Assembly: GCA_013396655.1 (NCBI GenBank)
Contig: WBMV01000298.1
Span: forward strand, 3,039,632 to 3,103,631
Length of the DNA: 64,000 bases
Reading direction: 5' to 3'
From: Campylorhamphus procurvoides
Lineage: Eukaryota > Chordata > Aves > Passeriformes > Dendrocolaptidae
Part shown: one piece after another, positions 20,327 through 22,033 of the stretch
Layout of the letters: the number at the start of each line of letters is the position of its first letter
Numbering within the stretch: position 1 is the first letter of the stretch
Notes under the pieces: generated by a model
What the model was told of the DNA's origin: nothing
The model's database searches: none
Seen by the model: only the letters and a program-made list of their open reading frames with translations
Made by a program: the position numbers and the translations under genes

Positions 20327-20758
20327 TGTCATGGTTTAACTCCAGCCGTGTATGACACAGCTGCTCTCTCAGTCCCCCACGACCTCCTAGTGTAATGGGA
20401 AGGAGAATCAGAAAAAAGGTAAAACCCCTGGGTTGAGATAAGAACGGTTTAAGAATTCAGATAAATTTAACAACAACAACAATAATAATTTTATTGAAAA
20501 GGAGAGAGAGAGATAAATAAAACCCAAATGAAAGAAGTGATGCACAACAGAATTGCTTACCGCCCTCTGACTGATGCCCATCCCATCCCCAAGCAGCAAC
20601 CTCCCCCTCCTGGCTAACTCTCCCCAGTTTATATACTGGGCATGACATTCTGTGGTATGGAATATCCCTTTGGCCAGTTTGGGTCACCTGTCCTGGCCAT
20701 GCTGCCTTCTGGCTTCTTGTGCATCTGCTCACTGACAGAACATGGGAAACTGAAAAGT

Positions 20759-20879
20759 GAAATCATAGAGTGTTTGGGTTGGAAGCGACCTTAAAGGTCA
20801 TCCAGTTCCAACCCCTCTTGCAGGTACAAATTCCATGAGACCAGGTTGCTCAAAGCCTCCTCCAACCTGGCCTTGTTAA
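20759..20879 (-). mobile_element. CR1 3' end forming the tail of a chimeric retro-insertion
   Basis: On the plus strand the segment reads AAATCATAGAGTGTTTGGG, AGCGACCTTAAAGGTCATCC, AGACCAGGTTGCTCAAAGCC and CTCCAACCTGGCCTTG. This is the last ~120 bp of an avian CR1 in minus orientation. It is joined directly to a run of ten T at 20880-20889, the poly(A) tail of the NUP42 copy. No matching CR1 remainder appears on the far side of that copy, where the LTR resumes at once. The CR1 tail, poly(A) and NUP42 sequence together are bounded by AAAAGT at 20753-20758 and 21884-21889, so they look like a single insertion event. Confidence 0.85.
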
Positions 20880-20889
20880 TTTTTTTTTT
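20880..20889 (-). other. Poly(A) tail of the NUP42 retrocopy
   Basis: Ten T on the plus strand form an A10 tail on the minus strand, nine bases after the AATAAA of the retrocopy. It marks the junction between the copied mRNA and the CR1 3' end. Confidence 0.85.
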
Positions 20890-21883
20890 GCCTGAGAGTT
20901 TATTATTGCAGAAGATTTATAGATGAAACAAAATTGAACTGAAACAGAAACATTTTATTTCATCACTTAACCATAAAATTGTGTAATTGAGCTATCAGAG
21001 AAGTTACTAACCCGTATTATTTCAAAATACACTTAAAAAATCCTAAACATTTTGAAGTTCTAGTGGTGGTGGCTTCAGAGGAATCTTTCCCATTGTAAAC
21101 TTTTTTGCTTCAGATTGTTTCAATTCTTCAGATACCCTTTGGTGTAACCAACTTTTCTGATGTAGTATTGTTTGGGACTGCAGAAGACACTGATATGATG
21201 TTATGTCCTGAGGCACTGTCAGTCTGTCCAAATAAAATACTGCTTGAACGTGAGGCAGAAGTTGCTATTGGTGCCTTAAAAGTTCCAAGGGCTGTAAGTG
21301 CAGTGTTGCTTGAAGAATTCACCACAGAAGAATTGCTAGGTGAGGGCATGACTCTAAATGCAGGAGGATTACAACCAGCATAAATGCTCTCAAAAGCTGG
21401 AGTAATTCCATACAATGGTGCACTGGCAAGACTGGAACTCATTGTAAAGGAGAAACTGGTGGCACTGTTACTACTGCTGTTCAGAGGAAAGCTTGGCAGC
21501 CCAAAGCTTGATGTTTGCTGTCCTTCAAATCCAAAGGAAAGCAAGGGTTGAGTGATCGTGTTCTTTAATTCAGATAGCAAAGCTTTCAACTTAGGCAGCT
21601 TATTTTTCTATTGTCCATTCTGTTGGACAGAAGTTATATAGCTCTGAATGTTCTTGCTTGCTCTGCAGTTATAACTCCAGATGGAACTGTACTGGCAAGA
21701 AATCTGAAAGGCCTGAGACATTCAGCTTTTCTTTCCCTGGTGAATAAGATGAAACTATCCATTGTCCTGAAGATTCCCAAATTTCCATGTCTTTCACTAC
21801 ACATTCAAGAAGTCTCTCCTCTTCATCTTTATAGCCATCAGCAATAGTTTGACTGTTCCTTAATGCAGAGAATCTGTTCTGCA
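20890..21883 (-). pseudogene. NUP42: Processed pseudogene of NUP42 (NUPL2), 5'-truncated
   Basis: NUP42 (also NUPL2, hCG1) is an FG nucleoporin on the cytoplasmic side of the nuclear pore that acts in mRNA export. The minus-strand frame carries a NUP42-like region (QNRFSAL, VVKDMEIWESSGQW, YNCRASKN), a Ser/Phe/Gly-rich middle, and the C-terminal signature KFTMGKIPLKPPPLE ending at TAG 21043-21045. It is intronless across what remains. A 3' UTR follows with AATAAA (TTTATT at 20899-20904) nine bases before a 10-base poly(A). It is disabled: a 2-bp frameshift near 21672, an in-frame TAG at 21608-21610 where tryptophan would fit, and another frameshift near 21135. The N-terminal zinc-finger half is missing. 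Identity rests on recalled family motifs, not on a search. Confidence 0.88.
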
Positions 21884-22033
21884 AAAAGTCCTTGAGTTAA
21901 ACACTAAGCAACAACAAAAACATCAGTGTGTTATCAACAGTATTTTCATACTAGATCCAAACCCCACAACACAGTACCAGCTACCAGGAAGAAAATTAAC
22001 TCTATCCCAGCTGAAAGAAAAAAGAACAGACTC

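Follow-up and report, generated by a model that had tools for sequence, protein, structure and literature searches.

A NUP42 mRNA copy joined to a CR1 tail in a bird genome, probably through template switching

The window (that is, the whole 64,000-nt stretch of DNA that was analysed) contains a host repeat, which we take to be a solo LTR, interrupted by a chimeric insertion that carries a copy of NUP42 mRNA and the 3' end of a CR1 element (Table 1). Direct reading of the minus strand gives the order LTR, 5'-truncated NUP42 coding sequence, stop codon, 3' UTR, AATAAA, A10, TTAA, last 117 bases of CR1, AAAAGT, LTR. The NUP42 and CR1 halves have the same transcriptional orientation, both being sense on the minus strand, and A10 starts nine bases past AATAAA. 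The order of parts claimed in an earlier note on this DNA (NUP42 coding part, 3' UTR, AATAAA, A10, CR1 end) is confirmed by direct reading and by alignments, and direct reading also bears out its claim that no CR1 lies past the NUP42 5' end, where the LTR resumes at once. The earlier note had further described A10 as joined "directly" to about 120 bp of CR1: a 117-base CR1 tail is present there, but TTAA sits between A10 and CR1, and the NUP42/CR1 join is therefore not strictly direct. The chimera occurs once within the window. The host repeat has no good second copy within the window (best E 0.011), and CTGAAAAGTCCTTGAG may represent the candidate uninterrupted host-LTR sequence.

Table 1. 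Features of the chimeric insertion and of the repeat that carries it (positions in the window).
Feature	Position	Strand	Basis
GACTC, left flank of the host LTR (5-base repeat)	20322..20326		direct reading
Host repeat read as solo LTR (TGTCATGG...GAACA), split by the chimeric insertion	20327..22028	+	direct reading
AAAAGT, target repeat on the CR1 3' side	20753..20758		direct reading, random-edge test
CR1 3' tail, 5'-truncated, octamer-like end CTCTATGATTTC	20759..20875	-	similarity to four other CR1 tails in the window; fold
TTAA spacer separating CR1 from the poly(A); either untemplated bases or poly(A) that has decayed	20876..20879	-	direct reading, CR1 alignment
A10 (T10 on the plus strand), remnant of NUP42 mRNA poly(A)	20880..20889	-	direct reading
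Presumed NUP42 3' UTR, with AATAAA at 20904-20899	20890..21042	-	direct reading
Truncated NUP42 coding region (5' part missing), a pseudogene with stops and frameshifts	21043..21882	-	similarity; stop codon 21045-21043
GACTTTT, LTR target and probable NUP42 Asp-Phe codons; includes the 5'-side AAAAGT (21884-21889)	21884..21890	-	direct reading, BLAST, protein comparison
GACTC, right flank copy of the host-LTR repeat	22029..22033		direct reading

A composite reading of the NUP42 part, compared with bird NUP42 proteins, gives a best E of 3.3e-103. The similarity corresponds to residues 95-422, the C-terminal end, of a 422-residue bird protein (P0001), in several frames and with internal stops; that is, the copy starts at about residue 95, and its 5' part is not full-length. 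The similarity reaches position 21882, or 21890 by BLAST. Against solved-structure chains, one NUP42 piece matches NUP42 (E 5.5e-9) and two further pieces give no matches; four NUP42 pieces give no Pfam family each, although whole bird NUP42 proteins have Pfam domains. Such missing Pfam and structure matches can happen with short, broken pieces. Two marks of a processed pseudogene are present: the mRNA end has a polyadenylation signal and poly(A), and the coding frame is broken. We conclude, on the sequence, that the NUP42 copy is a 5'-truncated pseudogene. About 38 residues of the NUP42 FG region are absent at the same place in the window copy and in P0121 (one of the proteins considered below), owing either to a deletion early on or to alternative splicing of the source mRNA.

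The four next-best matches to the insert within the window are CR1 tails, and alignment indicates that the CR1 homology with these four copies ends at CCTTG, after which TTAA and the T run follow. Compared with the majority of the four window tails, the CR1 part of the chimera shows agreement at 94 of the 117 bases compared; the alignment has 6 gap columns. The end of bird CR1 is described as an ATTCTRTG octamer beside a hairpin, a potential recognition site for reverse transcriptase (PMC8665684; this and the other papers are cited for the parts of their text that were available), and the outer end of the CR1 part, CTCTATGATTTC, resembles this octamer. The predicted fold of the CR1 tail has a z of -3.0, with 2 of 200 shuffles equally good; the predicted folds of two other CR1 tails in the window differ in overall shape, and we therefore treat the hairpin as a prediction only. 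The CR1 part, taken as 20759-20876, starts two bases outside the predicted stem. An Rfam scan of the whole window gave no matches, pattern scans of viral_contigs and genome_contigs with CR1 tail pieces and one LTR piece gave no matches, and a retrocopy profile compared with viral_contigs gave 188 pattern stretches and no relative. Elsewhere in the window, two more stretches (5644-5770 and 6734-6970) appear CR1-like as judged by eye, and GC-rich tandem repeats with units of 18 and 54 bases (5875-6114) adjoin the sole N of the window (6117).

AAAAGT is present at both outer edges of the insert, as the earlier note had claimed. This repeat is six bases long, a length that random edge pairs attain in 42 cases out of 100,000. 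For CR1 alone, the best bracketing repeat is 3 bases. For the NUP42 part alone, the bracketing repeat is CCTTG (20871-20875 and 21890-21894), and 5 bases are reached in 24.8% of 500 random 18x18 blocks. In 39 of the 47 NUP42 proteins used for the trees below, Asp-Phe-Ser directly precedes QNRF, and the window reads GAC TTT TTG at that site in the same frame; the 5'-side AAAAGT may therefore be mRNA sequence, target sequence, or both. We conclude that the 5'-side AAAAGT is likely also NUP42 sequence (Asp-Phe codons). Since those probable codons lie under the 5' copy, target duplication cannot here be told apart from microhomology, and AAAAGT is no independent sign of a duplication.

P0080 (blue jay), P0121 and P0125 (great tit) are three proteins that cluster with the retrocopy, apart from the gene; the gene models of P0080 and P0125 are named LOW QUALITY PROTEIN. 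The comparison with these orthologues is at the protein level and covers the NUP42 part, plus the LTR/NUP42 junction in jay and P0121; the CR1 junction is known from the window alone. With P0080, the match starts VKDFLQNRF, vs. LKDFLQNRF in the window; among 104 collected DF-x-QNRF proteins, VK precedes the motif in jay alone, NA in 74, and SA in 15, and the jay VK fits the LTR side of the junction. With P0121, the protein reads SRTFCRTD, which is an off-frame reading of the LTR/NUP42 junction, as in the window. With P0125, the protein begins inside the copy and is therefore uninformative on the junction. Residues found only in the window copy could be compared at 37 sites, of which 12 are common to at least one of the three orthologues and 8 to all comparable ones. 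Judged by these protein readings, the jay and P0121 proteins read through the same LTR/NUP42 junction as the window. Within these protein comparisons, no orthologue came up that has the CR1 part alone or the NUP42 part alone at this site. Separately, Athene noctua has two nearly identical NUP42-like proteins (P0088 and P0042), possibly a recent copy or an annotation split.

Trees were built from 47 NUP42 proteins, hand-picked from the best 120 of 264 and comprising 26 passerines and 21 others (20 bird proteins and one turtle), plus 2, 3 or 4 retrocopies; in the trees with 3 and 4 retrocopies, P0121 was trimmed by 34 residues and P0080 by 15, both at the N-terminus. In all three trees, the 26 passerine NUP42 proteins are united with support of 100/100, and the retrocopies fall outside them as a single clade; the clade of four retrocopies has support of 100/99. 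Constraining the retrocopies to group with Eupasseres NUP42 was rejected (p-AU 1.4e-5). An inner grouping of jay, tit and P0121 without the window copy has support of 100/99; grouping the window copy with tit gave p-AU 0.040, and grouping it with jay gave p-AU 0.105, which is not rejected. Sixteen columns separate the 26 passerine proteins from the 21 others. At these columns, the window copy has the state of the others at 11, the passerine state at 0, a third state at 1, and a gap at 4; the corresponding counts are 8, 0, 3 and 5 for jay, 7, 1, 1 and 7 for P0121, and 5, 1, 1 and 9 for great tit. From the trees and the states at these columns, we conclude that copying of the NUP42 mRNA likely dates to the passerine stem or before. 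A young, songbird-specific insertion is set aside on the orthologues and the trees. The earlier note had proposed looking for an empty site in related songbirds; such a site is unlikely there, because blue jay and great tit share the retrocopy, and, with the retrocopies branching outside the 26 passerine NUP42 proteins, the empty site is to be sought outside passerines. The 26 passerine NUP42 proteins themselves have a long shared stem branch (0.17 and 0.14 changes per column in the trees with 2 and 3 retrocopies, respectively; 100/100), as if the gene had evolved fast before crown passerines.

It is very probable that the chimera is one CR1-primed insertion. Probably, moreover, a single target-primed event placed it in an older and apparently solo LTR, with the CR1 reverse transcriptase switching from CR1 RNA to the NUP42 message at its poly(A) tail. 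As suggested by the product, a CR1 enzyme would have nicked the LTR, copying would have been primed at the CR1 RNA 3' end, and, after about 117 bases, the enzyme would have jumped to a NUP42 mRNA close by, at its 3' end. What remains of the poly(A) would thereby have become internal, beside CR1, matching the observed order; the TTAA would be decayed poly(A) or untemplated bases; and the cDNA would have ended short of the mRNA start, with closure via GACTTTT pairing of cDNA and target. A template switch is favoured by the order of parts, the shared orientation, the octamer-like CR1 end by the predicted hairpin, and the outer 6-base repeat; by the stop of CR1 homology where the poly(A) side starts, and the position of AATAAA nine bases before A10; by the junction readings in the orthologues, the shared residues, and the single retrocopy clade; and by the report that LINEs with stringent RNA recognition (L2 and RTE) form their chimeras with snRNA (U6) by template switching only (PMC4476161). 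A template switch is made less secure by the TTAA spacer, by the 5' truncation of NUP42, where full-length 5' parts are listed as a shared mark (PMC2104539), by a CR1 junction known from the window alone, and by a hairpin that is a prediction only. The earlier note's claim of target-primed reverse transcription that began on CR1 RNA and switched to mRNA poly(A) accordingly holds up as to the order, the CR1 3' end at the outer edge, the one outer repeat, and the lack of further CR1, and is weakened in that AAAAGT is confounded, CCTTG around NUP42 permits two steps, and an RNA possibly fused before insertion leaves the same trace.

Such a pre-fused RNA, that is, NUP42 mRNA joined beforehand to a CR1 RNA fragment by ligation or by transcription of a locus with both, and then copied in one piece by the CR1 enzyme, would yield identical order, orientation and outer repeat, and RNA ligation is one of two routes given for U6/LINE-1 chimeras; however, the locus version requires a further source copy, and the poly(A)/CR1 join is without the exon-to-LINE splice pattern seen in most LINE-1/mRNA chimeras (PMC13174262 for both points), and we regard a pre-fused RNA as unlikely. 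CCTTG on both sides of the NUP42 part is what two insertions would leave if a truncated CR1 whose end overlaps the LTR at CCTTG entered first and was followed by a NUP42 copy, ending GACTTTT, that landed exactly on the border with CCTTG as its repeat; alternatively, NUP42 could have come first and CR1 later, at the poly(A) end. Two insertions are nevertheless quite improbable: 5 bases are also given by random blocks at the frequency stated above, CR1 alone is bracketed by at most 3 bases, an exact landing on a CR1/LTR border of few bases is required, and a second event copying a poly(A) mRNA is needed, which would be rare in birds (PMC3136929).

Packaging and copying of NUP42 mRNA by an endogenous retrovirus is raised by the location of the copy within an apparent LTR, but NUP42 does not lie between two LTRs, and the repeat is flanked by GACTC copies of its own and continues to either side from AAAAGT; we set this explanation aside as highly improbable. 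A CR1 interrupted by NUP42 is also set aside, with no CR1 past the NUP42 5' end and a repeat of at most 3 bases around CR1 alone.

Mammalian processed pseudogenes are mRNA copies made by LINE-1 that end in AATAAA and poly(A). The NUP42 copy likewise has AATAAA and poly(A), but here the poly(A) lies inside the insert, with CR1 forming the outer 3' end. The marks listed for template-switch chimeras are a full-length cellular 5' part, a 5'-truncated, mostly LINE, 3' part, the same orientation, direct joining, and short direct repeats (PMC2104539); from this list, the 5'-truncated LINE 3' part and the same orientation are found here, and a full-length cellular RNA as 5' part is not. U6/LINE-1, U6/pseudogene and fungal LINE chimeras resemble the NUP42 chimera in having a cellular RNA 5' of a 5'-truncated LINE or mobilised mRNA, in the same orientation and, subject to the double reading of AAAAGT noted above, with an outer direct repeat (PMC4476161, PMC2104539). 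They differ in that their 5' partner is a full-length small RNA, whereas here it is a polyadenylated, truncated mRNA joined to CR1 as the LINE, in a bird host. Template switching is described as active at least from birds to mammals, and in turkey a 5'-truncated U6 lies beside a CR1-like element, in a structure left undecided because of an assembly gap (PMC4476161); both cases involve a bird, a CR1 or CR1-like element and a cellular RNA, whereas the NUP42 chimera is readable throughout. TguSINE1 and PittSINE also carry a foreign RNA head (tRNA) on a CR1 tail, and template switching has been proposed as the origin of PittSINE; unlike the NUP42 chimera, with its mRNA head and one copy in the window, they have pol III promoters and ~2000-2500 copies per genome (PMC5729268). 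LINE-1/mRNA chimeras, of which 17 are described, most with first exons and many joined at splice sites (PMC13174262), are alike in that an mRNA is fused to a LINE and inserted together with it; here, in contrast, the mRNA 3' end and poly(A), and not first exons, meet the LINE. Template-switch chimeras of LINEs are known already. A bird CR1 tail carrying a polyadenylated mRNA appears to be new, as we found no report of one in the open literature, to the extent of the text available there.

A 2015 paper on CR1 and the scarcity of bird retrogenes reportedly explains that scarcity by the dependence of the CR1 enzyme on its own 3' end. Retrocopies, numbering 78 in chicken vs. 4738 in human (PMC3136929), are few in birds, and a readable mRNA-poly(A)-CR1 chimera represents a likely way past this dependence. 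A broader proposal, to which we attach only tentative weight and which we consider doubtful, is that bird retrocopies include a standing class of mRNA copies with CR1 tails. Bound to start on its own 3' end, the CR1 enzyme would regularly jump to host poly(A) tails, and the NUP42 copy, made on the passerine stem and kept through the crown, would be one of many overlooked because annotation treats the CR1 tail and the gene copy as separate items. A poly(A) with a CR1 tail after it provides a signature for searching bird genomes, and the NUP42 chimera, through its apparent age, would be a marker for passerine origins.
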